The notes below the pieces were generated by a model. The model was not told the origin of the DNA. It saw nothing but the letters and a program-made list of their open reading frames with translations, and made no database searches. A program made the position numbers and the translations under genes. A stretch of DNA of 64,000 nucleotides, taken from NCBI RefSeq assembly GCF_000203975.2, contig NZ_AFCF02000003.1, forward strand, positions 193,327 through 257,326. Reading direction: 5' to 3'. Of this stretch, positions 4,841-24,333 are shown piece by piece. Each line of letters begins with the position of its first letter. The stretch's first letter is position 1. Origin of the DNA: Leisingera sp. ANG1 (GTDB taxonomy: Bacteria; Pseudomonadota; Alphaproteobacteria; Rhodobacterales; Rhodobacteraceae).

Positions 4841-4853
4841 CGCCGCCTCATCG

Positions 4854-6212: not shown

Positions 6213-6880
6213 TACACGTCTCCTCCGATCACAGCCTGTTTGATCAGCGGCGCGCCGCTGCGGTAGTTGCGGATGTCGTCGGCCAGGTTTTCAAACACCC
6301 GGGCGATCATCAGGACAAAGGACAGGGGCGCGGTGATCAGGAACCACCACTGCAGCACGCTGTCGGTGCCCAGCACGATCTGGAAGTTCGAGGCCGACAG
6401 CGCCGTCAGCCGGGTGGTGGTGACAAAGACGATCACCGCAAAGCCGAACCACAGGACCGCATCCAACGTCAGGCAGCCCATCTGCGCCCAGCGGGGCATG
6501 ACGGTGCGGAATTCCGAGAAGCTGAGATGGGTCCGCAGCCGCACGTTGAAGGCGGCCCCGAACCAAGCCATGATCATGAACAGCAGCGGCGGAATGGTGG
6601 TGGACCAGGGCTGCTGGTTCTTGAACACGAAGCGGTCAATCACACCCCAGAAAATGATGAAGGCAATCGCCAGGTAGCTCCACACCATGATGGTGCGCTC
6701 CAGGTGCCGGTCCATCAGCGGCACCAGCCGGTAGACCAGCATCACCAGAAGGCCGCCGAGCGCGGCGGCGGCGGTGCCCAGCACCCAAGCGGCATTGCTT
6801 TCTAGGGCATTGCGGATTTCCCAGCTATCCTGGGACGCGAAGGCGCTGAAAATGGCAGCGATATCCGGCCAAAGCTGCAT
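6212..6880 (-). CDS. dctQ: TRAP transporter small permease, DctQ type (importer II)
   Basis: Small TRAP permease of 222 residues, somewhat long for the family because of an N-terminal extension of about 35 residues before the first helix. Hydrophobic segments are visible near residues 30-52, 68-85, 95-115, 130-150 and 170-195. The middle has the usual W-F-G-A pattern followed by charged residues (MAWFGAAFNVRLRTHLSFSEF). It lies between the receptor gene (102-nt gap) and the large permease (1-base overlap). Confidence 0.88.
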   Translation of the reverse strand: MQLWPDIAAIFSAFASQDSWEIRNALESNAAWVLGTAAAALGGLLVMLVYRLVPLMDRHLERTIMVWSYLAIAFIIFWGVIDRFVFKNQQPWSTTIPPLLFMIMAWFGAAFNVRLRTHLSFSEFRTVMPRWAQMGCLTLDAVLWFGFAVIVFVTTTRLTALSASNFQIVLGTDSVLQWWFLITAPLSFVLMIARVFENLADDIRNYRSGAPLIKQAVIGGDV

Positions 6881-6905
6881 GTGTTCCTCCCCTCATTTCC
6901 CCTGT

Positions 6906-6941
6906 GATCCTGCCGGATCCTGTCGGGCAAACAAGGCCGAC
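6906..6941 (-). other. two short hairpins after TRAP II receptor gene
   Basis: GATCC-4 nt-GGATC (6906-6919) and GTCGG-10 nt-CCGAC (6922-6941) lie in the 102-nt gap between receptor and small permease. They are weaker than the matching elements in the other receptor operons. Confidence 0.35.
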
Positions 6942-6982
6942 GCAATCTGGCACCGGCCCTATGCTCATTGTTCAGGCCTTTG

Positions 6983-8215
6983 TCAGCCCTTCCACCAGCG
7001 GCGCGGTTCTACGTTTTCGGGCTTCATGTCTTTGTCGACTTCGCGCGCGATGGTGTAGATTTCCTGGTAGGTGTCGATGCCGCCAGCCCATTTGTTCAGG
7101 CGGTCGCGCCACTGCTCCCACAGCTGCGGCTGGAACTCGGGCGAGCACATTTCCTCGGCCATGCGGATTTCGCTGTCTGGCAGGAAGGCCGGGCGGACGC
7201 CGTGTTCCGCAAACACCGTGCCCGGCAGCTGCGGGTCGGAGAAGCCGACGGTCTTCACCAGCGCCGCCTCGTTTGCAGCCTGCACATGGGCCTGTGCCCA
7301 ATAGGCGCTCTCCATCACCGCGTCCTGCAGATAGCCCTCGAGGCCGTCGAAGACCTTCGCCGACATCGAGGTATGCTCGGTGCCGCAGAAGAACTTGAGA
7401 TCGACGGACTGCGAGACCACTGGCGCCATGTTGGCATAGGCCACTGCGGAAGCCCAGGTTTCGGCGCCGTCGATCAGGCCCTGCTTCAGCCCGTCGAGGG
7501 TCTCTTCCCATGCCACTGGCACCGGGTTCAGGTTCAGGGCATTCATCGCAATCCGGCCCAGCTGGGTGCCGGTAACGCGGTTCTTGGTCCCGAACAGCTG
7601 CTCCAGCTTGGTGATGGTCGGCTGGTCCTTGTATTTCAAGCCCAGCTGGATGCCGCGCAGCTCGCAATGGCTGAACAGGAACTTCAGCCCGTGGCGCTTC
7701 TCCAGCGGGTCGCGCAGGATTTCCTGGCTCTTGGGGTGATAGAGGAAGTGGTACTGGGACGCGCGGCCGGGGAACATGAAGGCATAGTCCAGCACGTTCA
7801 GGTAAGGTGCGCCGCCGGCCGAATTCTGGGTCGAAGCGGCGTAGATGTCGACAATGCCCTGCTGGGTTTTCTCGACGCAGCTCAGCTGGCCGCAGATCTG
7901 GTTGTCGCCGATGAACTCGATCCGGATTTCGCCGTCGGTGCGGGCCTCAAGGTCACGGGCGAACTCCAGAGCACCGGCCCGCTCGATCAGCAGATTGCGC
8001 GCGTTGAAGCCGGAAGCGCCGAACTTCAGCGTGTGCTTGGCGGGCTTAGCGTAGCGCTTCTCATAGGTCGATTCCGCAGCCGAGGCGAGATTCGCCAGGC
8101 TCATCGCGCTGCCGAAACCACCTGCTGCCAGCAGCGTCGAGCTCATCCCGTAAGTGCCTGCAACGCGGAACAGATCCCGCCGCGAAATACGGCTCAGTTT
8201 GTTAGTAAGCCCCAT
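6983..8215 (-). CDS. dctP: TRAP transporter solute receptor, DctP type, Tat-exported (importer II)
   Basis: Periplasmic receptor of 410 residues. The ATG at 8213-8215 is chosen because AGGGAGGAGA lies directly upstream (8218-8227); an in-frame ATG seven codons earlier lacks one. A twin-arginine motif (ISRRDLFRVAG) is followed by a hydrophobic stretch and an ASAAES cleavage region. The mature part has the DctP layout, with binding-site segments around LFGTKNRVTGTQLGRIAMNAL and GLKQGLIDGAETWASAVAY. First gene of the operon receptor-Q-M-iclR, and divergent from a GMC oxidoreductase, so the imported compound may be an alcohol oxidised by that enzyme (inference). Confidence 0.92.
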   Translation of the reverse strand: MGLTNKLSRISRRDLFRVAGTYGMSSTLLAAGGFGSAMSLANLASAAESTYEKRYAKPAKHTLKFGASGFNARNLLIERAGALEFARDLEARTDGEIRIEFIGDNQICGQLSCVEKTQQGIVDIYAASTQNSAGGAPYLNVLDYAFMFPGRASQYHFLYHPKSQEILRDPLEKRHGLKFLFSHCELRGIQLGLKYKDQPTITKLEQLFGTKNRVTGTQLGRIAMNALNLNPVPVAWEETLDGLKQGLIDGAETWASAVAYANMAPVVSQSVDLKFFCGTEHTSMSAKVFDGLEGYLQDAVMESAYWAQAHVQAANEAALVKTVGFSDPQLPGTVFAEHGVRPAFLPDSEIRMAEEMCSPEFQPQLWEQWRDRLNKWAGGIDTYQEIYTIAREVDKDMKPENVEPRRWWKG

Positions 8216-8240
8216 AATTCTCCTCCCTAAGATCAATTAT

Positions 8241-8257
8241 TGAGACGTTTCGTATCA
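8241..8257. promoter_or_regulatory. candidate IclR operator dyad
   Basis: TGAGACGTTTCGTATCA pairs as TGA-n-ACG-TTT-CGT-n-TCA: six of seven pairs match around a 3-bp centre. It lies in the 108-bp divergent gap between the TRAP II receptor and the GMC gene. The regulator assignment rests on the linked IclR gene and is inference. Confidence 0.6.
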
Positions 8258-8323
8258 AAAAAGCCTAGATTATTTCATGTGATCTGTATAGAAGTTTTTT
8301 CCACACAGGGCGGAGAGAAGGTC

Positions 8324-9913
8324 GTGGAAGCAGATTTCATTGTTATCGGAGCGGGGTCATCGGGGTGCGTCATCGCCAACCGGCTGAGCGCCAACCCAAG
8401 CAACAAGGTGGTGCTGCTGGAGGCAGGCGGGCGGGATATCAATCCCTGGATCCACATCCCTGTTGGCTACTTCAAGACGATCCACAACCCCTCGGTCGAC
8501 TGGTGCTACAAGACCGAACCGGATCCGGGCCTGAACGGCCGTTCGATCGAATGGCCCCGCGGCAAAGTTCTAGGTGGCTCATCTTCTCTGAACGGGCTTC
8601 TGTATGTGCGCGGACAGCCGCAGGACTATGACCGCTGGCTACAGATGGGTAATGCCGGCTGGGGCTGGGAGGATGTCCTGCCGCTGTTCAAACGCTCCGA
8701 GAACAATGAGCGCGGCGAAGATGAATTCCATGGCACCGGCGGTCCGCTGTCGGTTTCCAACATGCGCATCCAGCGCCCCATAACGGATGCCTGGGTCGCG
8801 GCTGCGCAGGCGGCGGGATACCCGTTCAACCCGGATTACAACGGCGCCACCCAGGAGGGCGTCGGTTTCTTCCAGCTCACGTCCAAGAAAGGCCGCCGCT
8901 GCAGCGCCGCCGTGGCCTTCCTGAATCCGGTGAAGAAACGCGAGAACCTGCAGATCATCACCCGAGCGATGGTGCAGAAGGTCGACATCCAGGACGGCCG
9001 CGCCGTGGCGGTTCTGTACAAGGACAGGTCGGGGCAAATGCAGCGCATCACCGCGCGGCGCGAGATCGTACTGTCGGGCGGCGCCATCAACTCGCCCCAG
9101 ATCCTGATGATGTCGGGCATCGGCGAGGCGGCACAGCTTGCCGAACACGGCATTGAGGTCAAAAAGGACCTCTATGGCGTCGGCAAAAACATGCAGGACC
9201 ATTTGCAGGCGCGGCTGGTTTACAAATGCAATGAGCCGACGCTGAACGACGAGGTCCGCACCCTGTTCGGCCAGGCCAAGATAGGCCTGAAATATGCGCT
9301 ATTCCGGGCCGGTCCGATGACAATGGCCGCGAGCTTGGCCACCGGATTCATGAAGACCCGCGACGACTTGGAGACCCCGGACGTCCAATTCCACGTGCAG
9401 CCGCTGTCGGCCGAGAACCCGGGCAAGGGGGCAGATCCCTTCTCGGCCTTCACCATGTCGGTCTGCCAGCTGCGCCCTGAAAGCAAAGGCGAGATCCGGA
9501 TCGTGTCCGCCGATCCGAACACCTATCCCAAAATCATACCGAAATACTTGTCGGCCGAAACCGACTGCCAGACCATCGTGGCCGGGGTGAACATTGCCCG
9601 CAAGATCGCCCGCCACGCGCCGCTGACCTCGAAGATCTCTGAGGAGTTCCGCCCAAGTGCGGATCTGCCGATGAACGATTACGAGGCGACGCTGGACTGG
9701 GCACGCAGCAACACCGCGTCGATTTATCACCCCACCGGCACATGCAAGATGGGACAGGGCGGCGACGCGGTGGTTGATGCGGAACTCCGCGTGCATGGCA
9801 TTCGGGGCCTGCGGGTGGCGGACTGCTCAATCATGCCGGAGATCGTGTCGGGCAACACCAACGCGCCCGCGATCATGATCGGGGAAAAGGCCAGTGAACT
9901 GATATTGCAGTAG
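8324..9913 (+). CDS. GMC-family FAD-dependent alcohol dehydrogenase/oxidase
   Basis: Flavoprotein of 529 residues that oxidises an alcohol. GTG at 8324 is chosen because GGAGAG lies 6 nt upstream and the ADP-binding motif ([19 protein letters not shown]) then begins at residue 3; the frame is open further upstream with no support. Both GMC signatures are visible ([18 protein letters not shown] near 85; [16 protein letters not shown] near 255) and the catalytic His region ([10 protein letters not shown], near 470). It resembles choline dehydrogenase-like enzymes broadly, but the substrate is undetermined. Divergent from the TRAP II importer across a shared dyad. A small GGTTC/GAACC hairpin follows the stop (9918-9932). 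Confidence 0.92.
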
Positions 9914-10642
9914 TTTCGGTTCACCTAGAACCAAGAGTGCGACTTACCTTCCTGACGTCAACCCAAGGATGCACAAGGTTTTCCTCCAAACACAGCCTCA
10001 GCAACGTACAAGCGGCATTTGCAATCCTCTTAGACTGTCCGGTTCTGATTGAGGGGCTGATGGGAGAATAGAGAATGGGACTATTTCCTTGTGCTGCCGA
10101 CCACAGTGAACCAGACGTGCGCTACAGCGATTCTGAGCTTTCAAGAAAATGCATGTAGCTGGAGGCGGATATGCTCGCAGAAAATTTATAGCAGCACCCA
10201 GTTCATCCACCGAATTGCTGTAAGCGTATTTCGAAGCTGGTGTCTGACGCCACAGAACAGAGCGTGGCACGGCTGACCCTCAAGTTCGCTCAGATACCAA
10301 ATTCCCAGGCATCCGGAATGCCGCGGCCGACACGGTCATGGCGAATACACTCCCTTTCTTAGTTATGTCTGGTCGCTCAGGAACGAGCCAATAAAATAGT
10401 TTCCAACTGGAAGAACTGTAGGAAGCAGTATCTCCCCGACTGGCTTTGCACTGCTGACATGCGGGTGCCGGGCCCCGTTACCTTCACGAATTACAGCCAG
10501 TTAGGACCCATTGCCACTCCTTCCAAATTGCGACGCGAGGAAACCTTATCATCTGGCGGCGACGTTACCGTTTCAGATCCTATTCTGGTATTGGTCCGTC
10601 GTCGCGCTGTATCCAACTAGCAAGTCCTGCCTGACGCTTCTC
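9914..10642. other. 729-bp intergenic region
   Basis: Lies between the ends of two converging units (GMC gene and the SauT-like gene). Base composition is less GC-rich than the flanks, and short open frames on both strands have no recognisable protein features or ribosome sites. Apart from the weak hairpin after the GMC stop I see nothing here. Confidence 0.5.
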
Positions 10643-12157
10643 TCAGCTGCTCTTCCCGGCCACGCGATCCGTGATCTCCTCAAGGATCCTGTTCCGCTGG
10701 ATCTTACCGGATGGGCCTTTGGGGAGGTCGTCCAGAATGTGGACCTCGTCAGGAGACTTGAAATTACCGAGCTGGGACCGGCAGATTTCAATAAGCTCCA
10801 GCGTGGTAAGACTGGAGCCGTCGCGGATTTTCACCGCCGCTTCCACTGTTTCACCGTAGGTATTGCAGGGGCGTCCGTAGGCGGCGGCCTCAATCACGTC
10901 AGGATGAGAATAAAGCGCCTCGTCGATCTCGCGCGGGGCGATGTTTTCGCCGCCCTTGATGATCAGTTCCTTGAGCCGCCCAGTGACATAGACGTAGCCA
11001 TCGCCGTCGATACGGCCCAGATCGCCGGTGCGCAGCCAGCCGTCTGGGGTGAAGGTCGCGGCCGTGGCTTCCGGGTTGTTCAGGTATTCCAGCATGACGT
11101 TGGGGCCGCGCACCGCCAGTTCGCCCTCGCTGCCATCACTGACGGGCTGCAGCCGGGCATCGAGGATTGTCACCTCGTTGCCGTAGGCAAAACCGGGCGA
11201 ACCAATCTTGCGGATGCCCGGGGGCAGGGGGTTGGACAGGATCTGGGCCGCGGTCTCAGTCAGGCCCATGGTCTCGATGATCGGGACTCCAAAGCGATCC
11301 TCAAACGCGCGCTGAACGTCGGGAGCCAGTGCGGAAGAGGCGGAACGGCCGAAGCGCAGCCGCGCCTTAGTGCTGTCAACGGGGTCCAGATCCGAGTGCA
11401 GCAAATGCGAGATGATGGTGGGGACCACAGAGAACCAGGTGGCCTGCGACCAGCCGGCATGGGCCCAGAAGCGGCTGGCGGAAAAGCGTTCGCACATGGC
11501 CAGCGAGCCGCCAGAGGTCAGCGCGCCCATCACCGTCACGCAGAGCCCGTTGATATGGTAGATGGGCAGCACGCAGAGGCCGCGGTCCTGCGGTGTCAGC
11601 TCATGCGCCACGGCGGTGGTCCAGCCGCCCGCCAGCAGGCTGGCGTGCGTATGCACCACCCCCTTGGGCTGGCCGGTTGTGCCTGAGGTGTACATCAGCA
11701 AAGCGTGGTCACCGGCAGAAAGCGGGTGCAGCTCTGCCGGTGACCCGCCGGTTGCTGCCGCCTGGTCCAAAGGGGAGAGAAAGGGCAGGCTGGCAGTCTC
11801 TTGAAACAGGTCCGTTTGGCTGGGGTGGACAAAGGCAAAGCGAGCGCCGCTGTGCTGCAGGGCGTAAGACACCGCGCTGTTGCCGGCAACAAGGTTGATC
11901 ATGGTGGCGCGGAAGCCGCCGTAGAGCACGCCGAAAAGGCATTCAAGCGCTTCGCGCCCGTTGGGGTGCAGGATGGCGATGCTTTCGCCCTTGGCGATTC
12001 CCTTGGCGGTCAGGTAGCGGGCGATTGCCTCTGCCGTCTTGCGCAGCTCCTGCCAGCTCAGATCTGGGCCGCCGTCCGGAAAGACAAAGCCGGTGCCGCC
12101 TTCTGCTGCGCGTGTGTCGAGCCAGTCACGGGTGGTTCCCTTGGGCGGTTCCATCAT
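10643..12157 (-). CDS. sauT: acyl-CoA synthetase, probable sulfoacetate-CoA ligase
   Basis: AMP-forming acyl-CoA ligase of 504 residues. The nucleotide loop (MYTSGTTGQPKG, near 153), the GWLRTGDLGRID motif (near 375) and the C-terminal catalytic Lys region (LPKGPSGKIQRNRI, near 482) are all present, so it should be active. Its ATG overlaps the stop of the acylating aldehyde dehydrogenase gene by 4 bases. In Cupriavidus necator, SauT activates sulfoacetate to sulfoacetyl-CoA and SauS reduces it to sulfoacetaldehyde. This pairing, plus a carboxylate importer in the same operon, is why I assign SauT. Substrate assignment is inference; another small carboxylate is possible. Confidence 0.68.
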   Translation of the reverse strand: MMEPPKGTTRDWLDTRAAEGGTGFVFPDGGPDLSWQELRKTAEAIARYLTAKGIAKGESIAILHPNGREALECLFGVLYGGFRATMINLVAGNSAVSYALQHSGARFAFVHPSQTDLFQETASLPFLSPLDQAAATGGSPAELHPLSAGDHALLMYTSGTTGQPKGVVHTHASLLAGGWTTAVAHELTPQDRGLCVLPIYHINGLCVTVMGALTSGGSLAMCERFSASRFWAHAGWSQATWFSVVPTIISHLLHSDLDPVDSTKARLRFGRSASSALAPDVQRAFEDRFGVPIIETMGLTETAAQILSNPLPPGIRKIGSPGFAYGNEVTILDARLQPVSDGSEGELAVRGPNVMLEYLNNPEATAATFTPDGWLRTGDLGRIDGDGYVYVTGRLKELIIKGGENIAPREIDEALYSHPDVIEAAAYGRPCNTYGETVEAAVKIRDGSSLTTLELIEICRSQLGNFKSPDEVHILDDLPKGPSGKIQRNRILEEITDRVAGKSS

Positions 12158-13575
12158 TGGCCCACCTCCGCCCAGTAGGTGGCAAAGATGTCGTCCAGCG
12201 CCGGTTCGCGGGCGGGAATCTCGCGTACAATCTTGGTGGACTGGACGAAGTGGCGCCAGTTGAGGTTGGTGTCGATGGAATTGCCGCCCCAGCTGCCGCA
12301 GCCCATCGACAGGGAGAACGGCATGCCATTGGTAAAGGCGCCGCCGGTGGCGAAAGTATGCGCCTGGTTGACGATCACCCGGCAGGTGGGCAGTTCGCGG
12401 CCAAGTTCGACGGCGCGCCCGTCCAGGGCGGTGTGGATGCCGATGGAGTGGCCGGCGCCCTGATGGGTGAGGATGCGGGTAGCGATGGCCTTGGCATCTG
12501 CGTAATCCGCGGCCCGGTAGACGGCGAGGATGCGGCTCAGCTTCTCTCCGGACAGCGGGTGATCCGGGCCGATGCCCCTGGTTTCCACCGCCAGGAATTT
12601 GGTGTCTGAGGGGACTTTGCCGGCCATGCCCAATGCGCCCAGCATCTTGCTGGCATCCTGGGCGATGACCGCGCGGTTCAGATGGCCGTCCGGCCAGAGT
12701 CTGGCGATGATGCCATCTGCCTCAGCCTCCGGCACCAGCGCGCCGCCTTCCTGGGCGAGCGCTGCAATGAACTGGTCATAGATGGAATCCACCACCACGA
12801 CGGAATTTTCCGAGGAACAGGAGGTGGCGTTGTCGAAACACTTGGAAGCGGTGATCTTGGCCGCGGCATCGGCCAGATCCGCGGTTTCTTCCACGATCAC
12901 GGTCACATTGCCGGCCCCCACGGCCACGGCAGGCGTGCCGCAGGACTGGGCGCGGTGGACGTTGTTCTGGCTGCCGGTGCAGATCACCCGGTCGGCGGCC
13001 TCCATCAACGCCTGGGTTTTGGCTTTGGAACCGGGTGCAGGGATCATCTGCACCAGATCAGGATTAAGGCCCAGCTTGGCAAACTCGGCGTGGATATAGG
13101 CCAGCAGCAACTCGCAGGAAGCGACGCCCTTGGGGGAGGGGGCCACGACGATGGCATTGCCGCCCTTCAGCGCGTTGATGATGTTGTTGGCAGGCGTCGC
13201 CGCCGGGTTGGTCGAGGGAACAACGGCGCCGATCACGCCGATGGGGCGCATGATCTCGGTGATGCCAGTTTCAGGGTCGTCGCTGATGATGCCATGGGTC
13301 TGGACGTCCGCGATGTCGCGCAGCAGTCCCAGCGTCTTGCGGTGGTTCTTGGTGATCTTGTCCGGCACATTGCCGAGGCCGGTGCTTTCCACCGCCAGCT
13401 CGGCCAGGGCGCGGTTGCGGGCGGGCTCCATGATGGCCCATCCGGCCGCCAGGGCAGCTTTGTCATAGAGAGCCTGGCTTCCCTTGGCTTCAAAGTCCTG
13501 TTGGGCGGTGCGGGCGCGCACCACGATCTGTTCCACCTCGGCGGCGCCGGAGGCGAGTGCGTCCTGAGCGTTCAT
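12154..13575 (-). CDS. sauS: CoA-acylating aldehyde dehydrogenase, probable sulfoacetaldehyde dehydrogenase
   Basis: A 473-residue enzyme of the CoA-acylating aldehyde dehydrogenase group (related to the N-terminal half of AdhE). The catalytic Cys is in FDNATSCSSENS (Cys253), and the PSTNPAATPANNIINALKGGNAIVVAPSP region and the GGAFTNGMPFSLSMGCGSWGGN tail are typical of the group. Together with the downstream ligase it would convert sulfoacetyl-CoA to sulfoacetaldehyde with NAD(P)H. Xsc, which consumes sulfoacetaldehyde, is not in the window. A strong hairpin separates it from the receptor gene upstream. The enzyme class is secure; the substrate is inferred from the pair and the importer. Confidence 0.72.
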   Translation of the reverse strand: MNAQDALASGAAEVEQIVVRARTAQQDFEAKGSQALYDKAALAAGWAIMEPARNRALAELAVESTGLGNVPDKITKNHRKTLGLLRDIADVQTHGIISDDPETGITEIMRPIGVIGAVVPSTNPAATPANNIINALKGGNAIVVAPSPKGVASCELLLAYIHAEFAKLGLNPDLVQMIPAPGSKAKTQALMEAADRVICTGSQNNVHRAQSCGTPAVAVGAGNVTVIVEETADLADAAAKITASKCFDNATSCSSENSVVVVDSIYDQFIAALAQEGGALVPEAEADGIIARLWPDGHLNRAVIAQDASKMLGALGMAGKVPSDTKFLAVETRGIGPDHPLSGEKLSRILAVYRAADYADAKAIATRILTHQGAGHSIGIHTALDGRAVELGRELPTCRVIVNQAHTFATGGAFTNGMPFSLSMGCGSWGGNSIDTNLNWRHFVQSTKIVREIPAREPALDDIFATYWAEVGQ

Positions 13576-13595
13576 GTCTTACCTCGATTTCTAGG

Positions 13596-13626
13596 CCGGG
13601 GCGCGCTGCGGCTGTGCGCGCCCCGG
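13596..13626 (-). other. strong intercistronic hairpin after tctC-type receptor gene
   Basis: An 11-bp perfect stem (CCGGGGCGCGC with GCGCGCCCCGG) and a 9-nt loop fill the 68-nt gap between the receptor gene and the aldehyde dehydrogenase gene. No T-run follows. Probably gives more receptor than enzyme mRNA. Confidence 0.65.
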
Positions 13627-13643
13627 AGGAGTTCCGGCTGGGA

Positions 13644-14603
13644 TCAGAGCCCTGCCAGAAGCTCTTTCAGTGTCTGTTCGCGGGCGGCCCACATCTCCTT
13701 GACCTCGTCGCGGGTCATGATGTGCATGGGTGAGCCGCCGGCCGCCATCTTCTTGGAGACCCGGTCATTGGCGAACATCGCAGGCACGGTTGCAGCGAGC
13801 TTGTCGATCACCTCTTGCGGCGTGCCCTTGGGCACCATCACGCCGCGGAAATTGACGGAGGAATTGTCGACCTCCAGACCTTGCTCTTGCATGGTGGGCA
13901 CGTCGGGCAGGAAATCGGAGCGCTGCAGGTCGGCAACCCCCAGGATCCTGACGTTGCCGGCCTCCTGCGCACGGTAGGCATCCGACAGGTTGTTGATGCC
14001 GCCCATTACCTCACCGGCGATCACTGCCTTCATCGCAGCGGCACCGCCGCCCTTGGTCGGGATGTAGGCCATTTTCACGCCTGCGGCCTTTTCGATCTGC
14101 AGCGCCGCGATGTGGTGGCCAACAAACAGGCCGGCGCCGGAAAAGGTCAGCTTGCCCGGGTTTTCCGTGGCATAGGCAACCACATCCGCCATCGAATTGA
14201 AGGGACTGTCAGCACCGACCACAAAGACCGCCGGGTCTGCGCCCCAGTTGGCGATGGGTTCAAAGCTGTCTGCGGAATAGGACACGCCGCCCTTGATCGA
14301 CTGCGCAATGAAGTGTGGCACGTTGTAGGCCGCGAGCGTGTAGCCGTCGGCATCGGCCTGGGTCGCAAACCAGTTCCAGCCGACACGGCCGCCCGCGCCG
14401 GGCTTGTTGATGATGGCGATGGGCATTCCCAGCGCATCCTCGTTGCCGGCGGTCATGGTGACGATCCGGGCCTGAAAATCAGTTGCCCCGCCGGCCCCGT
14501 AGGAGACCATCATCATGATCGGGCGTTCCGGGTACTCTTCGGCCATGGCAGCGCCTGCCAGGCCCATCAGCGCGATGGCAGCGCCTGCAATCAGTTTCTT
14601 CAT
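13644..14603 (-). CDS. tctC: TTT transporter solute receptor, TctC (Bug) family
   Basis: Periplasmic receptor of a tripartite tricarboxylate-type transporter, 319 residues. The ATG at 14601-14603 follows AGGGAGGAGA and begins a classic Sec signal (MKKLIAGAAIALMGLAGAAMAEE); the upstream open frame is spurious. The TctC pattern is present (YPERPIMMMVSYGAGGATDFQAR; NKPGAGGRVGWNWFA; GVMVPKGTPQEVIDKLAATVP). The Asp of GATD normally contacts the ligand carboxylate in Bug proteins. In the operon tctA-tctB-tctC-sauS-sauT, so the ligand is probably sulfoacetate or a similar small acid. Confidence 0.92.
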   Translation of the reverse strand: MKKLIAGAAIALMGLAGAAMAEEYPERPIMMMVSYGAGGATDFQARIVTMTAGNEDALGMPIAIINKPGAGGRVGWNWFATQADADGYTLAAYNVPHFIAQSIKGGVSYSADSFEPIANWGADPAVFVVGADSPFNSMADVVAYATENPGKLTFSGAGLFVGHHIAALQIEKAAGVKMAYIPTKGGGAAAMKAVIAGEVMGGINNLSDAYRAQEAGNVRILGVADLQRSDFLPDVPTMQEQGLEVDNSSVNFRGVMVPKGTPQEVIDKLAATVPAMFANDRVSKKMAAGGSPMHIMTRDEVKEMWAAREQTLKELLAGL

Positions 14604-14644
14604 TTTCTTCTCCTCCCTATTGGTTTCTGACCGCGTTCCCGCGG

Positions 14645-15100
14645 TCAGAACAGAATTTCCCGCGGCGTGTAGACACTCAGCAGTTTTGCAAAGAGGCCGT
14701 ACATCACCGCCACGAAGACGGCGGTGACCAGCATGCGTTTTACCCAGGTTTTGCCTTCGGAATGCGGCGCCGGGTCGTAGAGCGACAGCAGGATGAAAAA
14801 TCCGATGGCGGTGGCGGTGTAGAACCCCAGCGCCTTGGCTGCCCAAAAGACATAGATCAGCATCACCGCCAGACCCGGAACCATGTTCAGGAACATCGTC
14901 CGGGACACGCCGGAGCCGACCTTGCTGAGGCCGAGGGCAGCCTTGCCGAAGGTCCAGCCCGCCAGCACCACAAAGACGGATGCGATCAGGCGCGGAAACA
15001 GGAAGGCCTCGGCAGGCTGCTGGGTGTAACTGACCCAGGCGACCCAGATGCCGACGGCAAAGACCAGACCGGAGCCAAGGATGTGCTGAGACCGGTTCAT
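14645..15100 (-). CDS. tctB: TTT transporter small membrane subunit, TctB family
   Basis: A 151-residue membrane protein with four hydrophobic segments (about 8-24, 38-55, 70-105 as a pair, 125-142), the layout of TctB. Its start overlaps the stop of tctA by 4 bases, and tctC starts 41 nt downstream, so it is an obligate partner of this importer. TctB proteins are poorly conserved; identification rests on topology, size and order. Confidence 0.88.
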   Translation of the reverse strand: MNRSQHILGSGLVFAVGIWVAWVSYTQQPAEAFLFPRLIASVFVVLAGWTFGKAALGLSKVGSGVSRTMFLNMVPGLAVMLIYVFWAAKALGFYTATAIGFFILLSLYDPAPHSEGKTWVKRMLVTAVFVAVMYGLFAKLLSVYTPREILF

Positions 15101-16608
15101 GCTTGCGCCTCCTCTTTGGTGGTGTAGCGGCGGCTGCGCAGTTCCATCCAGGCCGAGTAGGCGATGGAGGCGACGACCACGGCGATCAGTAAGATGTTCA
15201 GCCCGCCCGACAGGAAGTAACTGGCCTTGCCGACGGTGGCGTCCGCGATCATGCCGCCTTGGATGAAGTTCGCCTCAGCGATTGGACCAAGGATCAGGCC
15301 CAGCACCAGCGGCGCGGCGGAAAAGCCGAAACGTTCCAGAAAGTACATGCCGATGCCGAGGCAGGCCATCACGTAGACGTCGCCCATCGAGCTTTGCACC
15401 GAGTAGGCGCCGAAGGCGGAGAGGGCGAGCACGATGGCGGCCATCACCGATTGCGGCACCTGGGCAACGCGGGCGGCGAGGCCCGCCACATAGAGACCGA
15501 ACAGGCACATCAGGACCTGGCCGACCAGCATCGAGTTGATGAAGGTCCAGGCCACATCCGGGTGATTGTCGAACAGATCAGAGCCGGGGAAAATGCCGTG
15601 GATCAGCAACCCGCCCAGCAGCACCGCGGCGGTAGGGCTGCCGGGGATCGACAACGTCAAGAGTGGTACCAGCGACGGGCCGACCATGGCGTTGTTGGCG
15701 GCCTCTGCGGCGATCACGCCTTCGCTGTGGCCCTTGCCGAACTTCTCCTTCTCGGAGGAGAACTTCTTGGTCTGGTCATAGGCCACCAGCCCGGCGATCT
15801 GGCCGCCGACGCCGGGTATCAGCCCGATGATGGAGCCGGTGATGGTGCCGATGCTAAGGGCGCGCGGGCGGCGCAGCAGTTCGCGGGTGGCGTCAAGCAC
15901 GGAATGCTTCTGCACCTCGATCACCTCGGCGCCGTCCGCACGGCGGCCCTTGGCGAACATGGTAAGCACCTGCGGGATGGCAAAGAGGCCGATCAGCGCC
16001 GCGATGATGTTGATACCGCCGCCAAGCGACGGATGGAAGATGAACCGCTGGGCGCCCATGATGTCGTCGAACCCGATGGTGGCCAGCCACAAGCCGATGC
16101 AGCCCGAGAGCAGCCCCTTGACCACGGAGGCCGAGTCCAGCGAGCCGATCACCGTGACGCCCAGGATCGCCAGCCAGAACAGATGCGAGGGGCCGAAGGC
16201 CAGCGCCCACTGGGCTAGCAGCGGGGTCAGGAAGATCAGCAGCAGCACGCCGAAGATGCCGCCGACGGCGGAGGCCAGGAACGACAGCTGCAGCGCCTTG
16301 GCGCCCTGGCCCTGCTTGGCCATCTTGTGGCCGTCCAGCGTGGTGGCGATGTTTGCGGGTGCGCCGGGGATCTTCAGAAGGATCGCGCTGACTGCGCCGC
16401 CGGCCACGGTGGAGGTATAGGCGGCGCCCAGCAGAATCAGGCCCTGAACGGCCTCCAGATGGAAGGTGAAGGGGATCAGCAGCGCCACCGCCATTGTCGG
16501 CGAAAGCCCCGGTGTTGCCCCCAGGATAAGCCCGCCGATTGTGCCGCCCAGCAGCAGCAGGAATGACAGCGGCGAGAACACATCTCCGAAGTAAAATATG
16601 AAGTCCAT
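15097..16608 (-). CDS. tctA: TTT transporter large membrane subunit, TctA family
   Basis: Large permease of the TTT importer, 503 residues, normal for TctA. The ATG at 16606-16608 is supported by GGGAGG at 16615-16620; the open frame runs 26 codons further up into the regulatory region. The signature GATPGLSPTMAVALLIPFTF is near residue 30, and further TctA stretches follow (GAAYTSTVAGGAVSAILLKIPGAPANIATTLDG; IPGVGGQIAGLVAYDQTKKFS; LTLSIPGSPTAAVLLGGLLIHG). First gene of the putative sulfoacetate operon. Cupriavidus uses a different importer (SauU) for this pathway. Confidence 0.95.
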   Translation of the reverse strand: MDFIFYFGDVFSPLSFLLLLGGTIGGLILGATPGLSPTMAVALLIPFTFHLEAVQGLILLGAAYTSTVAGGAVSAILLKIPGAPANIATTLDGHKMAKQGQGAKALQLSFLASAVGGIFGVLLLIFLTPLLAQWALAFGPSHLFWLAILGVTVIGSLDSASVVKGLLSGCIGLWLATIGFDDIMGAQRFIFHPSLGGGINIIAALIGLFAIPQVLTMFAKGRRADGAEVIEVQKHSVLDATRELLRRPRALSIGTITGSIIGLIPGVGGQIAGLVAYDQTKKFSSEKEKFGKGHSEGVIAAEAANNAMVGPSLVPLLTLSIPGSPTAAVLLGGLLIHGIFPGSDLFDNHPDVAWTFINSMLVGQVLMCLFGLYVAGLAARVAQVPQSVMAAIVLALSAFGAYSVQSSMGDVYVMACLGIGMYFLERFGFSAAPLVLGLILGPIAEANFIQGGMIADATVGKASYFLSGGLNILLIAVVVASIAYSAWMELRSRRYTTKEEAQA

Positions 16609-16648
16609 TCGGGGCCTCCCAACCCGGCTGATCGCGCTTTTACTTTTG

Positions 16649-16654
16649 TTGACA
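16649..16654 (+). promoter_or_regulatory. candidate -35 box of the LacI gene
   Basis: TTGACA, a consensus -35 hexamer, sits 17 bp before AAAATA (16672-16677). The operator at 16682-16695 would overlap the transcription start, consistent with autorepression. The -10 match is weak. Confidence 0.4.
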
Positions 16655-16681
16655 AAACAGGTTAGGCTATGAAAATAGTAT

Positions 16682-16695
16682 TGCAAACGTTTTCA
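16682..16695. promoter_or_regulatory. LacI-type operator for the TTT/SauST operon
   Basis: TGCAAACGTTTTCA is a LacI-style palindrome with a CG centre and six of seven pairs matched. A wider inverted pair TATGAAAA (16668-16675) and TTTTCATA (16690-16697) brackets it. Located between divergent tctA and the LacI gene. Confidence 0.7.
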
Positions 16696-16722
16696 TAAAT
16701 CTTGCCGGGGGGAGGGGAGATT

Positions 16723-17745
16723 ATGGCGCCGAAACAGAAGGGTAACGTGGATATCGTTGCGGTGGCAAAGGCTGCAAAAGTGTCGCCCTCAACGGTGTCG
16801 CGCACCTTCAATCACCCCGATCTGGTAAGCCCGGCGACTCGCAAGAAGATCACCCGTGCGGTGCAGAAACTGGGATATGTCAGAAACCGCGCGGCGCAGA
16901 TGATGCACGGCAAGCGGTCGGGCACCATCGGGCTGGTGGTGCCGACCATCAACCACGCGATCTTTGCCGAGGTGATCCAGGCGTTCTCGGATGCGATCGA
17001 CCGGGCCGGCTTTACCCTGCTTCTGGCCTCGCACGGCTATGATCTGGAGCGGGAATACGAGATGGTGCGCAAGCTGATGGAGCACCGGGTGGATGGTGTG
17101 GCGCTGATCGGGCTGGAGCATTCCGAAGCAACCTCGCGGCTGATTGCGCAGCAGGAAACGCCGGCAATGGCGATTTGGAATTATGCAGAGGATGCCGAGC
17201 TGCCCTGCGTCGGCGCCGACAACAAACTGGCCGGGCGGATGGCCGCAGAGCACTTGGTAGCCCTGGGGCACAGGGACATCGGCCTAATCTTTCCCGACAC
17301 CCGCGGCAACGACCGGGCACGGCACCGGCTGGAGGCGGTTCTGGAAACACTTGAAGCCGCTGGCGTGGCGGTGCCGGAGGGGCGCAAGTCGGAAGCGCCA
17401 TACAGTGTTTCGCAGGCCAAGCAGGCGGCCCTTGCGCTGTTGTCGGCACCGTCCCGACCGAGCGCGCTGCTATGCGGCAATGACGTGATTGCCCAGGGCG
17501 CGCTTTATGCAGCGCAGCGCTGTGGGCTGCGGGTGCCGGAGCAGCTGTCGGTCATCGGCATCGGCGATTTCAAAGGATCCGCCGAAGTCGAACCGGGGCT
17601 GACAACGGTTCGCATCCCTGCTGGCACCATCGGGACGCTCGCCGGCGAGCAGTTCACAGCCTTCATAACCTCTGAAACGCCGGAGCCTTTCAGAATCTGC
17701 TGTAAACTGGAGCACGTTTTACGCGGAACAACCGGTGCTGTTTAA
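16723..17745 (+). CDS. LacI-family regulator of the putative sulfoacetate operon
   Basis: A 340-residue LacI/GalR protein. ATG at 16723 follows GGGGGAGGGGAGA; a TTG seven codons earlier is less likely. The helix-turn-helix is VDIVAVAKAAKVSPSTVSRTFN (about residues 8-29), followed by a sensor domain (GLVVPTINHAIFAEVIQAF; LLCGNDVIAQGALYAAQRCGLRVPEQLSVIGIGDF). Divergent from tctA with an operator between, so it probably represses import and catabolism. LacI control of a sulfonate or carboxylate pathway is less usual than control of sugar genes. Confidence 0.92.
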   Translation: MAPKQKGNVDIVAVAKAAKVSPSTVSRTFNHPDLVSPATRKKITRAVQKLGYVRNRAAQMMHGKRSGTIGLVVPTINHAIFAEVIQAFSDAIDRAGFTLLLASHGYDLEREYEMVRKLMEHRVDGVALIGLEHSEATSRLIAQQETPAMAIWNYAEDAELPCVGADNKLAGRMAAEHLVALGHRDIGLIFPDTRGNDRARHRLEAVLETLEAAGVAVPEGRKSEAPYSVSQAKQAALALLSAPSRPSALLCGNDVIAQGALYAAQRCGLRVPEQLSVIGIGDFKGSAEVEPGLTTVRIPAGTIGTLAGEQFTAFITSETPEPFRICCKLEHVLRGTTGAV

Positions 17746-18318
17746 AACCAACAGCGCCAGTTGGACAAGCCCGCACTGCCACAAGCAACAGCTTTTCATA
17801 CAGAAGCCTGCTGCATTTGAACCGGAAAACCTGATCTTCAGGACCTGATGGAGTAAGCGCTCCGAAAAAATGGGGGATTACCCATCCAGCTGACCTATGA
17901 TGGCCCGTCACCGAAGACTTCCTCCAAGGCACCAAAAATCTTGCCGAGAGCATGGCCCAGAACCTAGTTGTTGTCCGGAATATCTGGACCCAAGAGGCCG
18001 GTACCGAACACTTTGGCTCCACCTATCTGATCAAAGCCCTAGAGCACCTGGAAGCCTACAAGGCCATGCATATTCCGCACCTGGCCTCGATCGGCATCGA
18101 AATCGTCAGCGACCACGTATTTGATGTGAGGGAATGACCCAGCCAATTCAACCGCACCCCGTTTCAGACTGTTTTTTTAAAGGCTCTATTAATTAAACGT
18201 CCTCTCCTGTCAGCATCAGAAGAGGCACTCTCCAGCTTCGATAGCAGGTTACAGCTGAAGAAGTTTTTGGACAGTCAAGAAAGCCGCACCCGGCGGAAGC
18301 CAGATACGGTTTTTCAGG
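17746..18318. other. 573-bp intergenic region holding a coding-like fragment
   Basis: Between the converging ends of the LacI gene and the ABC permease gene. It contains one coding-like fragment (17901-18137, listed separately). No clear terminator with a T-run was found for either side. Confidence 0.5.
17901..18137 (+). pseudogene. unrecognised gene remnant (C-terminal piece)
   Basis: A 78-codon stretch, in frame with an ATG at 17952, reads as a normal soluble protein with GC-rich third positions: TEDFLQGTKNLAESMAQNLV, then a helix-like HFGSTYLIKALEHLEAYKAM and SIGIEIVSDHVFDVRE before the stop. A stop codon lies just upstream, while a different frame there reads LTYDG, as if a frameshift separates it from a lost 5' part. 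No ribosome site. I do not recognise the family; it looks like the tail of a decayed gene. Confidence 0.35.
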
Positions 18319-19836
18319 TCATCGTTTGCCTGCGACAATCCGGTCGAGGATCAGGGCGCAGAACAGGATCGCTAGGCCCGCCAGGATGCCTTGGCCGGCG
18401 GCGGCATATTGCAGCGCTTCCAGCACGTCCTCTCCCAGCCCCTTGGCGCCGATCAGCGAGGCCACGACCACCATCGCCAGTGACAAGAGGATGGTCTGGT
18501 TGACGCCGGCCATGATCGTCTTGCGCGCTAGCGGCAGGTCCACCCGCCACAGGAGGTAACGCGGGGTGGCGCCGAAGGCGAGCGCGGCCTCACGCACGGT
18601 TTCCGGCACCTGCTGCAGGCCCAGCACGGTGAAGCGGATCACCGGCGGGCTGCCGAAGATCATGGTGGCGACCACGCCCGCGGGCTTGCCGGAGCCGATG
18701 AAGGCTACCACCGGGATCAGGTAGACGAAGGAGGGCATCGACTGCATGAAGTCCAAGACCGGGCGCACCACCGCAAAAACCTTGGGGCGGCGGGCGCAGT
18801 AGATGCCGAGCGGGATACCCAGGGTGATCGAGATCAGCGCTGCGGCTCCCAGCAGGGCAATGGTGGTCATCGCCTTTTCCCAGAAGTCCAAGAGGCCCAG
18901 GTAGGCCAGCGCCGCGCCGGTGAAGATCGCCACCCGGGCGCCTGCCGACAGGTAGGCCAGCATCACAATGACCAGCGCCACCACCGGCCAGGGGGTATCG
19001 ACCAGCACCACCTCGATCCAGTCCAGAAGCGTGCGCATGCCGGCGGTCAGCCCGTCAAAGAAACCGCGCCCGGAGGTCTTGGTCCAGTCGAACGCCGCCT
19101 GCACCCCGTCGCCGACGTTCAGCCGCCAGTCGCGGTTGGTGGGGAAGGCGTTCAGCAGCGAGAAGGCATCGGGCATCGCGAATTTCAGCGCCGACAGCAC
19201 AACCACGGCGGCGGCCAGCACGGAGGAGACGATTAGCCGCGGCAGTGACCAGCCGCTGGCGACGCGGCGGTCGGAGCGCCAGCGGGCAAACTGCCCCTCC
19301 AGCGTCCAGTTCGCCAGCGACGCCGCCAGGAACTTGACCGCCAGCAACAGCGCCGCGCCGGCGATCAGGTAGATGGTGCCGCTGGCATTGGCGGCTGCCG
19401 CGGCCTGCTGTGCGCCGGTCAACGCCGCCTCCAGCGACTCTGCCGCGCGTTTCAGGGACTCGAGCGAGGACGCGCCCGAGGCCTCGGCTGCAGCGATCTG
19501 CTGGTGCCGCAGGTCCAGCGTCTGGGCAATCTGTTCCGCGCGCAGGCGGGAGTCCCGGCCGAGGTCACCGAACAGCCCCATCGCGATCTGGATATAGGCC
19601 AGCGTTTCCAGCAGCAGAAAGCCCAGGAACCAGGACCACAGGCCCCGGGCGCCGAACCAGACTGGCCCCAGCAGCGCGGCGGCGCGGTTCAGGGTGAAGC
19701 GGTAACCGGGCGCCTCCATCATGTAGGAGAAAACGCGCTGGTAATAGGCCTGCGACTGACCGGTGAATTCCGCCACCAGCGCATTCAGGCGTCCGGCGGT
19801 CTCCGGTTTGATCTGTGATTGGTCGATGTGTTGCAT
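18319..19836 (-). CDS. tmoV: ABC transporter permease, probable TMAO importer TmoV
   Basis: Membrane subunit of a ProW-type quaternary-amine importer, 505 residues. ATG at 19834-19836 is chosen because GAGGAGAAG lies 6 nt upstream; GTG starts 1 and 5 codons earlier are possible. The C-terminal 200 residues are the ProW core (ALISITLGIPLGIYCARRPK; SMPSFVYLIPVVAFIGSGKPAGVVATMIFGSPPVIRFTVLGLQQVP; AGVNQTILLSLAMVVVASLIGAKGLG). The N-terminal half is unusual: hydrophobic segments flank a helical, Ala/Glu/Gln-rich stretch (about residues 98-155) that could form a coiled coil outside the membrane. Named by linkage to the Tdm-like gene. Confidence 0.78.
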   Translation of the reverse strand: MQHIDQSQIKPETAGRLNALVAEFTGQSQAYYQRVFSYMMEAPGYRFTLNRAAALLGPVWFGARGLWSWFLGFLLLETLAYIQIAMGLFGDLGRDSRLRAEQIAQTLDLRHQQIAAAEASGASSLESLKRAAESLEAALTGAQQAAAAANASGTIYLIAGAALLLAVKFLAASLANWTLEGQFARWRSDRRVASGWSLPRLIVSSVLAAAVVVLSALKFAMPDAFSLLNAFPTNRDWRLNVGDGVQAAFDWTKTSGRGFFDGLTAGMRTLLDWIEVVLVDTPWPVVALVIVMLAYLSAGARVAIFTGAALAYLGLLDFWEKAMTTIALLGAAALISITLGIPLGIYCARRPKVFAVVRPVLDFMQSMPSFVYLIPVVAFIGSGKPAGVVATMIFGSPPVIRFTVLGLQQVPETVREAALAFGATPRYLLWRVDLPLARKTIMAGVNQTILLSLAMVVVASLIGAKGLGEDVLEALQYAAAGQGILAGLAILFCALILDRIVAGKR

Positions 19837-19847
19837 CACCCTTCTCC

Positions 19848-20897
19848 TCACGCCTGGCTGTCCTGAATGGCGCGGATCAGGCCCGCGCGGTTGATCACCC
19901 CGACGGTGGTGCCATCATCCGCCACTTTGACGATGCCGTGGCCGTCCACTGCCAGTTCCATCAGGTCGCTTAGGTCCATGTCGGGCCGCGCCTCCCTGGC
20001 GTCGGCGGGCAGGGCGCCGTGGGTGGCTTCGAACTCCGCCACTGGCTTCATCACCGAATGGGCGAAGATCATGTTGAGCTTGGAGATGCCAGCCACGAAA
20101 TCCGCCACGTAGTCATCAGCCGGGTTGAGGATGATCTCCTCCGGCGTGCCGATCTGCACGATGCGGCCGTCCTTCATGATGGCGATGCGGTGGCCGATGC
20201 GGATCGCCTCGTCCAGGTCATGGGTGATGAACATGGTGGTCTTGCCCAGCTTGCGGGAAAGCTCCATGAACTGGTCCTGCAGCTGCTTGCGGATCAGCGG
20301 ATCCAGCGCTGAAAACGGCTCGTCCATCAGCAGGATCTCGGGGTCGGAGGCGATGGCGCGGGCCAGCCCGACGCGCTGCTGCATGCCGCCCGACAGCTCA
20401 TGGGCGTATTTGTCCTCCCAGCCCGAAAGCTCCACCAGTTCCAGCACCCGGTCGGCTTCCTCCCAGCGGCGGGCCTTGCCGGTGCCGCGGATTTCCAGCG
20501 GCATCGCCACGTTGTCGCGCACCGTGCGGTGCGGCATCAGGCCGAAGTTCTGGAACACCATGGCAACCCGGCGGTTGCGCAGGTCGCGCAGGCCTTCGGC
20601 GTTCAGCCCCATCACATCGTCGCCGTTGATGTAGATATGGCCGTCGGTCGGCTCCAAGAGCCGGTTCACATGGCGCACAAGCGTCGATTTGCCGGAGCCA
20701 GACAGGCCCATCACGCAGAACAGCTCGCCGCGTTCGATCTGGAAGCTGGCATCGGCGACGCCGACCACGCAGTTGAACCGCTCCAGCACCTGCGGCTTGG
20801 TCAGCCGTTCGGCGTGAATGGCCTTCAGCGCCTCGGCGGAGCGTGCGCCGAAGATCTTCCAGACGCCGCGTGCGTCGATTGCAATGTCCTTTTCCAT
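19848..20897 (-). CDS. tmoW: ABC transporter ATPase with CBS domain, probable TMAO importer TmoW
   Basis: ProV-type ATPase of 349 residues. Walker A (GLSGSGKSTL, near 67), signature (LSGGMQQRVGLARA, near 166) and Walker B (ILLMDEPFSALDP, near 187) are intact. It has the long ProV N-terminus (IFGARSAEALKAIH...VVGVADASFQIERGELFCVMG) and a C-terminal CBS-like segment ending in HGIVKVADDGTTVGVINRAGLIRAIQ, which in OpuA-type systems senses ionic strength. It sits between the receptor gene (74-nt gap with hairpin) and the permease start (11 nt). The betaine-importer family is certain; TMAO specificity is by linkage to tdm. Confidence 0.8.
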   Translation of the reverse strand: MEKDIAIDARGVWKIFGARSAEALKAIHAERLTKPQVLERFNCVVGVADASFQIERGELFCVMGLSGSGKSTLVRHVNRLLEPTDGHIYINGDDVMGLNAEGLRDLRNRRVAMVFQNFGLMPHRTVRDNVAMPLEIRGTGKARRWEEADRVLELVELSGWEDKYAHELSGGMQQRVGLARAIASDPEILLMDEPFSALDPLIRKQLQDQFMELSRKLGKTTMFITHDLDEAIRIGHRIAIMKDGRIVQIGTPEEIILNPADDYVADFVAGISKLNMIFAHSVMKPVAEFEATHGALPADAREARPDMDLSDLMELAVDGHGIVKVADDGTTVGVINRAGLIRAIQDSQA

Positions 20898-20928
20898 CCG
20901 GACCCCCGTCTAACTTAATGAAGGTGCC

Positions 20929-20949
20929 CCGGCGGCAGGCCGCCGCCGG
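20929..20949 (-). other. intercistronic hairpin after tmoX-type receptor gene
   Basis: An 8-bp perfect stem, CCGGCGGC with GCCGCCGG, around a 5-nt loop in the 74-nt gap between receptor and ATPase genes; no T-run. Confidence 0.6.
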
Positions 20950-20971
20950 AGCGCGCGTGTGGGAGGGCGTG

Positions 20972-21940
20972 TTATTTCAGGCCAAGCCAGGTATCGACGG
21001 TACCGCCATTGTCGGCGATCCAGTCTGCAACAACCGCGTCGATCTCATTGCCTTTGACCACCACCTCGTAGGTGAGTTCGGACAGGGCTTCGGCGCTCAT
21101 GTCGATGCTGGACAGGAAGGAGGCAGCGGCCGGGTTGCGGTCCTTCAAGGAGCTGGAATAGGCCACGGTCACGGTCTTGACCGGCTCGCCGGTGGAGATG
21201 TGCGAGTTGTTGTACCAATCGGCATCCTGATCCGGCTGCACCATCTTGTAGGTGGCTGCGTCATGCTCCGGCTCTTCCAGGATGGTCACGTCATAGAGCG
21301 CGTGCACATAGTGCGGCGCGTAGCAGTAGAAGGCGGCGCCTTTCTCCTGGTCGACCAGATCCTTGAGGCGGGAGTAGAACACGGTTTCGTCTTCGGTGGT
21401 CGGGGTCAGGAAGGTTTCGATGCCGTAGTCGCGCACCCGCACCTTGAAGGTGTTGGTCGAGGCCCAGCCGGAGGCGCCGACCCAGACCTCGCCCATGCCG
21501 TCACCGTCGCTGTCAAACAGCGCCTGTGCTTCGGGAGTGGCAAGGTCGAAGATCGATTTGATGTTGTGTTTCTCCACCATGTAGTTGGGCACACAGATGC
21601 CTGCGCGGCCCTCGTAGCTGCCAGAAGAGAGGGCCACGGAGCCTTTCTGATCGACATATTCATCGGTGAAGGAGGCCTGGTTCGGCAGCCAGACATCCGG
21701 GTGCACGTCGATATCGCCGCGGCCGCCGTCCATCGAGGCGAAGATCACCGCGTTGGCGCCGGGGGCATAGCCGGCCTCGCTGCCGAGGCGGCTTTCGATC
21801 ACCTGGCCGATGATCCGGCTCATGATCTTGGCGCCGGGCCAGCTGGGCTCACCCACCATGACTTTCTCCTGTGCCGTGGCACTAGTGGCCGCAGCTGCGC
21901 CCAGGGCGGTAACGGCGGTGACGAAGATGATATTTTTCAT
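20972..21940 (-). CDS. tmoX: ABC transporter quaternary-amine-type receptor, probable TMAO-binding TmoX
   Basis: Periplasmic receptor of 322 residues with a Sec signal (MKNIIFVTAVTALGAAAATSATAQ). It belongs to the OpuAC/ProX group; Trp- and Tyr-rich segments that build the cage for a methylated ammonium group are visible (GEPSWPGAK; DVHPDVWLPNQ; YAPHYVHALYDV; DADWYNNSHI). Ruegeria pomeroyi TmoX is the TMAO-specific member of this group. Here it is directly downstream of a Tdm-like gene (37-nt gap), so TMAO is the best guess; glycine betaine or choline are alternatives. Confidence 0.8.
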   Translation of the reverse strand: MKNIIFVTAVTALGAAAATSATAQEKVMVGEPSWPGAKIMSRIIGQVIESRLGSEAGYAPGANAVIFASMDGGRGDIDVHPDVWLPNQASFTDEYVDQKGSVALSSGSYEGRAGICVPNYMVEKHNIKSIFDLATPEAQALFDSDGDGMGEVWVGASGWASTNTFKVRVRDYGIETFLTPTTEDETVFYSRLKDLVDQEKGAAFYCYAPHYVHALYDVTILEEPEHDAATYKMVQPDQDADWYNNSHISTGEPVKTVTVAYSSSLKDRNPAAASFLSSIDMSAEALSELTYEVVVKGNEIDAVVADWIADNGGTVDTWLGLK

Positions 21941-21977
21941 CGTTTTCTCTCTCCTGTTGGTGTTTGTTTCAAGCGCC

Positions 21978-24299: not shown

Positions 24300-24312
24300 G
24301 CCGAATCTGGTT

Positions 24313-24328: not shown

Positions 24329-24333
24329 GGTTG

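Follow-up and report, generated by a model that had tools for sequence, protein, structure and literature searches.

In the sauRSTU system of Cupriavidus necator H16, reportedly described by Weinitschke in 2010, the dehydrogenase SauS and the AMP-forming ligase SauT are said to feed Xsc, under a regulator that is reportedly of the IclR type. Here we analyse a locus resembling this system in a 64,000-nucleotide stretch of the genome of the marine bacterium Leisingera sp. ANG1 (order Rhodobacterales; NZ_AFCF02000003.1, positions 193,327 to 257,326), hereafter the window. In Bilophila wadsworthia, the sauSCD-SauXYZ system combines SauS with SauXYZ, a tripartite tricarboxylate transporter (TTT) that serves as importer (PMC12625764, PMC12890257); its SauCD is ADP-forming, and the product goes to isethionate and IseG, not Xsc (PMC12890257). 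In Arctic sponge symbionts, sauST occurs with a TTT as putative importer, an arrangement named the hybrid type (PMC12625764). Sulfoacetate, a small acid that contains sulfur, is obtainable from the breakdown of taurine and of sulfoquinovose (PMC12625764, PMC12890257).

The initial annotation of the window proposed one operon of SauS- and SauT-like enzymes with tctABC, beside a divergent lacI-type gene. All six genes are present, in the order proposed:

10643-12157, minus strand: sauT, AMP-forming acyl-CoA ligase, probable sulfoacetate-CoA ligase (AMP-binding PF00501, 235 bits; PF13193)
12154-13575, minus strand: sauS, CoA-acylating sulfoacetaldehyde dehydrogenase (NF047625, 676.4 bits, curated cut-off 600)
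13644-14603, minus strand: tctC, TTT solute-binding protein, presumed sulfoacetate receptor (PF03401, 143 bits; start inferred from the frame)
14645-15100, minus strand: tctB, TTT small membrane subunit (PF07331, 50 bits, cut-off 29)
15097-16608, minus strand: tctA, TTT large membrane subunit, TTT type 1 (PF01970, 455 bits)
16680-16697, core 16682-16695: operator-like palindrome, ATGAAAACGTTTGCAAT on the minus strand; the core is single-copy in the genome and is kept at LacI-linked sau loci
16723-17745, plus strand: lacI-type gene, probable repressor of tctABC-sauST (PF00356, 52 bits; the Peripla_BP domains PF13377 and PF00532)

On the minus strand the operon reads tctA, tctB, tctC, sauS, sauT, with 4-base overlaps at tctA/tctB and sauS/sauT, and lacI diverges from tctA across 114 bases. 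The regulator gene likely starts at the ATG at 16723, the longest frame opening at a TTG at 16702, and its product has both the LacI helix-turn-helix (PF00356) and a periplasmic-binding-like domain (PF13377, PF00532). The nearest named relatives of SauS are from Leisingera (90-93% identical), and relatives of TctC with solved structures include BugD and terephthalate-binding proteins. Since the six-gene block recurs in many genomes, as detailed below, the arrangement is far beyond chance. Scans of positions 9850-17900 gave no excess of promoters (1 match versus 1.6 in shuffles) or terminators (7 matches versus 6.6); the sole promoter-like match, at 16649-16676 on the plus strand, ends 3 bases short of the palindrome.

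These genes very probably form a sulfoacetate utilisation (sau) operon, predicted to provide import, activation to the CoA ester and reduction to sulfoacetaldehyde under LacI repression, with the pathway completed elsewhere in the genome. From the sequence we infer its substrates, transport direction, repression and inducer as follows. In the periplasm TctC would be the receptor for sulfoacetate, which TctAB would then carry inward; SauT would convert sulfoacetate, ATP and CoA to sulfoacetyl-CoA and AMP, which SauS would reduce to sulfoacetaldehyde. Xsc and Pta would then yield sulfite and acetyl-phosphate and, from the latter, acetyl-CoA, leaving SoeABC-like and TauE-like proteins to dispose of the sulfite. 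The LacI-type protein, bound to the one palindrome between lacI and tctA, would repress both genes until a sulfoacetate-derived inducer appears.

The later steps of this route were expected by the initial annotation to be encoded elsewhere, and the genome indeed holds a single xsc that scores above its cut-off (934 against 676 bits), with pta beside it (332.7 bits, cut-off 311.2), both on contig C17 (C, G and L numbers denote contigs, genomes and loci). The 934-bit match rules out a genome lacking xsc, the outcome that had been named beforehand as refuting. By models and domains, the surrounding stretch (L046) carries a soeABC-like trio of the molybdoprotein-FeS-DmsC type, then pta and the gene for a TauE-type permease, and on the far side of xsc the genes for a MocR-type regulator and for an aminotransferase, presumably Tpa; no model named Soe or Tpa matched in this stretch. 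With 348.6 bits the MocR-type protein exceeds the cut-off of the PdxR model (320), and what suggests a TauR role for it is its gene position.

Relatives tie the enzyme pair to the same metabolism. In a linkage survey of 35 loci from a search for SauS relatives, 80 further loci and the window, sauST adjoins xsc in L104 (with pta and soeA) and L106, soeABC-like genes in L101, L102 and L121, and a TauE-type gene in L023-L031, L040, L126, L154 and L160 (TauE domain confirmed for L126, the one locus checked); sauS of Paracoccus sp. TOH likewise has an annotated xsc at a distance of 5 kb. The company of xsc, soeABC-like and TauE-type genes links the pair to sulfite-releasing metabolism. At the TTT2-type loci L023, L025, L029, L040, L126 and L154, the TauE-type gene is accompanied by genes for a conserved protein of about 930 aa and for a class V aminotransferase, whose domain was checked in L126 alone. 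An order survey of 390 genomes found 72 SauS places over the cut-off in 70 genomes; xsc occurs in 67 of these 70, versus 192 of the 320 genomes without SauS (Fisher p 1.6e-10, uncorrected for kinship).

SauS is the only gene over the NF047625 cut-off in the 4.59 Mb genome, and SauT lies within 9 kb of SauS at 69 of the 72 places. SauT shares 40% identity with its counterpart in Caballeronia sp. NK8, where the locus reads IclR-SauS-SauT-MFS (MFS, major facilitator superfamily). Below the cut-off, 34 places at 417-511 bits, many at about 425, make up a SauS-like group that is common in the order.

Several observations weigh against assigning the operon to sulfoacetate. The best relatives of SauT with solved structures are oxalate-CoA ligases (281 bits), whose substrate is likewise small and doubly charged, and malonyl-CoA synthetases rank lower among the matches; and TTT systems often carry carboxylates. 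Both would fit an operon for another small dianionic acid, such as oxalate or malonate, imported by the TTT, converted to its CoA ester and reduced to a semialdehyde or glyoxylate. The NF047625 score alone is no proof of substrate, as two SauS-like proteins at places without SauT (L095 and L096) score higher, at 759 and 752 bits; the model may be incompletely specific for sulfoacetaldehyde dehydrogenase. The presence of xsc also says less than it might, the gene being widespread without SauS anyway, and three genomes (G033, G176 and G240) carry the full LacI-TTT-sauST block (L112, L097 and L100) with no xsc over the cut-off: either Xsc is not obligatory or the assemblies have gaps. Lastly, the operator core is not found near xsc, which leaves coordinated induction of xsc unexplained. 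Against the dianionic-acid reading stand the SauS score above a cut-off set for a sulfoacetaldehyde equivalog, the ties of sauST to xsc, soeABC-like genes and TauE in relatives, and a change in the ligase itself: SauT has H201-x-N203-G where three aligned oxalate-CoA ligases have H-x-H-G, and the Asn in place of the second His is kept in 105 of 105 SauT rows, those of Caballeronia and Paraburkholderia included. What this change does to substrate choice may only be surmised, and taking these points together we consider an operon for another dianionic acid unlikely. In L095, the SauS-like gene is followed by an ADP-forming CoA ligase (Pfam), with thiolase- and acyl-CoA dehydrogenase-like neighbours by eye.

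The direction of the proposed sulfoacetate route can be weighed in the same way. Ligases of the AMP-binding type favour activation, and a three-part binding-protein importer lies inside the operon; both argue against the reverse route, in which taurine-derived sulfoacetaldehyde would be oxidised to sulfoacetyl-CoA and sulfoacetate excreted. Sulfoacetate-forming variants with a CoA-acylating dehydrogenase are known (SqwD/SqwKL; PMC12890257, PMC11659671), but the ligase of such a variant is ADP-forming (PMC12890257), whereas that of Leisingera is AMP-binding. We regard export as highly improbable.

Evidence for the regulator comes from its neighbourhood and its putative site. A divergent LacI relative (at least 45% identity) lies beside 63 of the 72 SauS places. 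The palindrome between lacI and tctA, with a core that is single-copy in the 4.59 Mb genome, has a match in each of 85 upstream regions of LacI-linked loci (the window and 84 others), the lowest at 15.9 bits against a shuffled maximum of 9.3. After the addition of four plasmid loci, the exact 15-base sequence ATGAAAACRTTTGCA is found in 87 of 89 regions, L043 and L106 deviating slightly; as the identical loci L042 and L099 are both among the 85 and the 89, 88 of the 89 are distinct. A second block, ACTATTTTCAT, follows ATGAAAACRTTTGCA in LacI-linked regions. Because the regions scored are those from which the matrix was built, an exact genome-wide search is the fairer test: ATGAAAACRTTTGCA occurs 64 times in 63 of the 390 genomes, while the reversed control gave 0 among the matches listed, and 62 of the 64 occurrences lie within 6 kb of sauS. 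Counted by place, the site is present at 62 of 63 LacI-linked SauS places (the miss being L106) versus 0 of 9 others. The TTT2 and LacI labels of L030 and L040 stem from a LacI-type gene further downstream, and neither locus has the site.

Two stray sites, G034:C35 and G378:C231, both lack the second block, and none of 24 query proteins was found in the stretches around them, although the G378 stray lies 0.5 kb from a contig end and little is visible there. The G034 stray (L237) is likely due to chance; 4-5 kb away are genes related to those for the protein of about 930 aa (54%) and the class V aminotransferase (65%) of the TTT2-type loci. A further LacI site at xsc is ruled out by the single-copy core. 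Elsewhere in the window, a second LacI-type regulator gene (2753-3814) lies beside a binding-protein gene (1300-2658) of the tripartite ATP-independent periplasmic (TRAP) transporter type, with a weak variant of the sau site at 2705 (8.1 bits).

Most characterised LacI-family regulators sense sugars (PMC4052901), which might suggest that the LacI-type gene is a bystander regulating something other than sau. We judge this very improbable, given a LacI gene beside 63 of 72 SauS places, a conserved and nearly exclusive site in the gap that separates it from the operon, and the retention of both despite a different transporter at L101, L104, L107, L203 and L206. Most simply, the LacI-type protein would be a local repressor with a single target.

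The initial annotation saw the combination as a replacement, relative to C. necator, of both transport and regulation; its frequency in the order qualifies this view. A LacI-type gene with a type 1 TTT marks 58 of the 72 SauS places, which rules out a form peculiar to this strain, and LacI-TTT-sauST is the usual form in the order. Another TTT accompanies LacI at four places and an MFS carrier at one; without LacI, there are three places with a third TTT and one with type 1. At two, SauT occurs without LacI or a listed importer, one of them L121, where a relative of the third TTT (TctA 59%, TctC 53%) stands with the soeABC-like genes; the remaining three have no SauT. Neither L152 nor L109 has a LacI gene or site beside sauST; L152 keeps the type 1 TTT, and none of the searched importers is near L109. 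Two pairs of identical loci came from separate collections (L042/L099 and L031/L126), and the order survey includes one member of each, L099 and L126. The weak Vibrio matches L044 and L045 were left out, and L168-L174, which either score under the SauS cut-off or do not belong to the 72 places (L172-L174 have no SauS match over a 35% identity filter), enter no count of 72.

Beyond the order, 6 of 398 genomes in a phylum-wide sample pass the SauS cut-off, four of them also in the order set. Of the other two, both in the same class as Leisingera, G436 (L167) has a LacI-TctABC-SauS-SauT block, and G527 (L166) has SauS and an MFS gene, with no SauT found. A plasmid collection yielded IclR-SauS-SauT-MFS in Caballeronia and IclR-TctCBA-SauS-SucCD-like in Azospirillum (L205).

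The importer is the part of the block that varies. LacI and its site are kept with a different TTT at L101, L102, L104, L107 and L206, and with an MFS carrier at L203 (exact site) and L106 (variant site); in a quick SauS tree these seven loci form one starred group, and the transporter labels need 12 changes in all. As the site is mostly kept despite another importer, the regulator seems to move along with the enzymes. A quick tree of 50 TctA rows, which has many long branches, shows each of the three sauST-linked TTT types as one clade, and they are not sisters; a single joint clade is not rejected by an approximately unbiased test (p 0.07).

A second unit, probably sulfonate-related, precedes the operon in the window:

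4067-4840, minus strand: IclR regulator, iseR-like; its place matches SPO2355 iseR (PMC4334477)
4854-8236, minus strand: TRAP transporter DctM, DctQ and DctP, iseM-L-K-like, in the order of SPO2356-2358; dctP start uncertain
8324-9913, plus strand: GMC oxidoreductase, iseJ-like, placed as SPO2359 iseJ; start uncertain, the longest frame running from 8240

The stretch 4067-9913 has the iseR-iseM-iseL-iseK-iseJ order, with IclR, TRAP and GMC families, and the IclR gene belongs with this unit and not with the sau operon. The iseJ-like protein is 64% identical to a GMC protein beside xsc in Paracoccus sp. TOH. The isethionate label is drawn from gene order, this xsc-linked relative and PMC4334477; against solved structures, DctP (6986-8236) gives weak matches (best 45 bits), among them receptors for both 2,3-dihydroxypropane-1-sulfonate (DHPS) and isethionate. 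Comparable neighbours recur: a GMC, MFS and IclR unit beside sau in Paracoccus TOH; a GMC protein (48%), an IclR relative (41%) and an MFS-like gene, the last by eye, beside sau in P. phymatum (L207); and a 48% GMC relative near sauS in L166. The examined stretches of the other order-survey loci hold no GMC relative over 40% identity. In L. caerulea the ise-like unit is plasmid-borne, with a gene annotated as sulfite oxidase nearby. The sau operon and the adjacent ise-like unit form a possible C2-sulfonate island.

With moderate confidence, we favour a broader view of the sau operon in which its LacI-family protein would be a dedicated, single-target sulfoacetate repressor with a near-invariant operator and a non-sugar effector, perhaps sulfoacetate or sulfoacetyl-CoA. 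The regulator and SauST would be inherited as one unit onto which importers are swapped, an MFS carrier and no fewer than two TTT types among them, and here, beside the isethionate unit, the operon would be part of an island for C2 sulfonates in which two importers lead to a single product.

On the other side of the operon, positions 18319-25486 encode a betaine/choline-type ABC transporter, a 795 aa fusion of DUF1989 and GcvT, and a divergent gene; near a sau locus of Tateyamaria (L029) there are relatives of both the fusion (64%) and the divergent gene (51%).

If the proposed reading of the sau operon is true, a single block of importer, enzymes and repressor is common to most SauS-bearing genomes of the order and can be located by searching for a site of 15 bases, which would sharply mark sulfoacetate use in genomes and be a candidate for a biosensor. 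Import through a binding protein points to use at low concentration, compared with a Km of 7.3 +/- 4.9 mM for sulfonatoacetate given for the C. necator SauR sensor (PMC7057948). More generally, the distribution suggests that importers change while regulator and enzymes stay together.

Within the literature searched, the LacI regulator and its site appear undescribed: the portions of the papers covered, including PMC9870897 and PMC13372026, hold no description of a sau-linked LacI regulator, subscription papers and RegPrecise lying outside the search. In the main text of PMC4052901, on the LacI family, no word starts with 'sulfo'. Among roseobacters there is a precedent for a sulfonate regulator of the LacI type, since hpsR of Ruegeria pomeroyi, a LacI-family regulator, is tabled beside the transporter genes hpsKLM (PMC4334477); unlike the Leisingera regulator, hpsR goes with DHPS and a TRAP transporter, and the likeness is one of family only. 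The same source gives the SPO2355-2359 genes of R. pomeroyi in the order iseR-M-L-K-J, which equals that of 4067-9913 in the window, a likeness of order and family only.

Among the described sau systems, that of B. wadsworthia shares with Leisingera both SauS and a TTT importer; its SauCD is ADP-forming, unlike the AMP-binding Leisingera ligase, and it is the Azospirillum locus (IclR, TctCBA, SauS, SucCD-like) whose layout resembles the B. wadsworthia type. The Arctic sponge symbiont hybrid is like the Leisingera locus in having sauST and TTT genes in one cluster, and this combination of sauST with a TTT importer is already in print (PMC12625764). The main text of that paper is without the words LacI, IclR, SauR or 'transcriptional regulator', its figures lying outside the scope of this check, and no operator for the hybrid clusters appears in the passages covered. 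With C. necator sauRSTU as it is reported, in part through PMC12625764, Leisingera has in common the acylating dehydrogenase SauS and the AMP-forming ligase SauT; it differs in having TctABC for the MFS carrier SauU and a LacI-type for the IclR-type regulator. To this extent the initial annotation holds, as both parts also differ from the IclR-sauS-sauT-MFS order seen in Caballeronia sp. NK8, but what it took for a local replacement is the common form in the order, and its TTT half matches the published hybrid.

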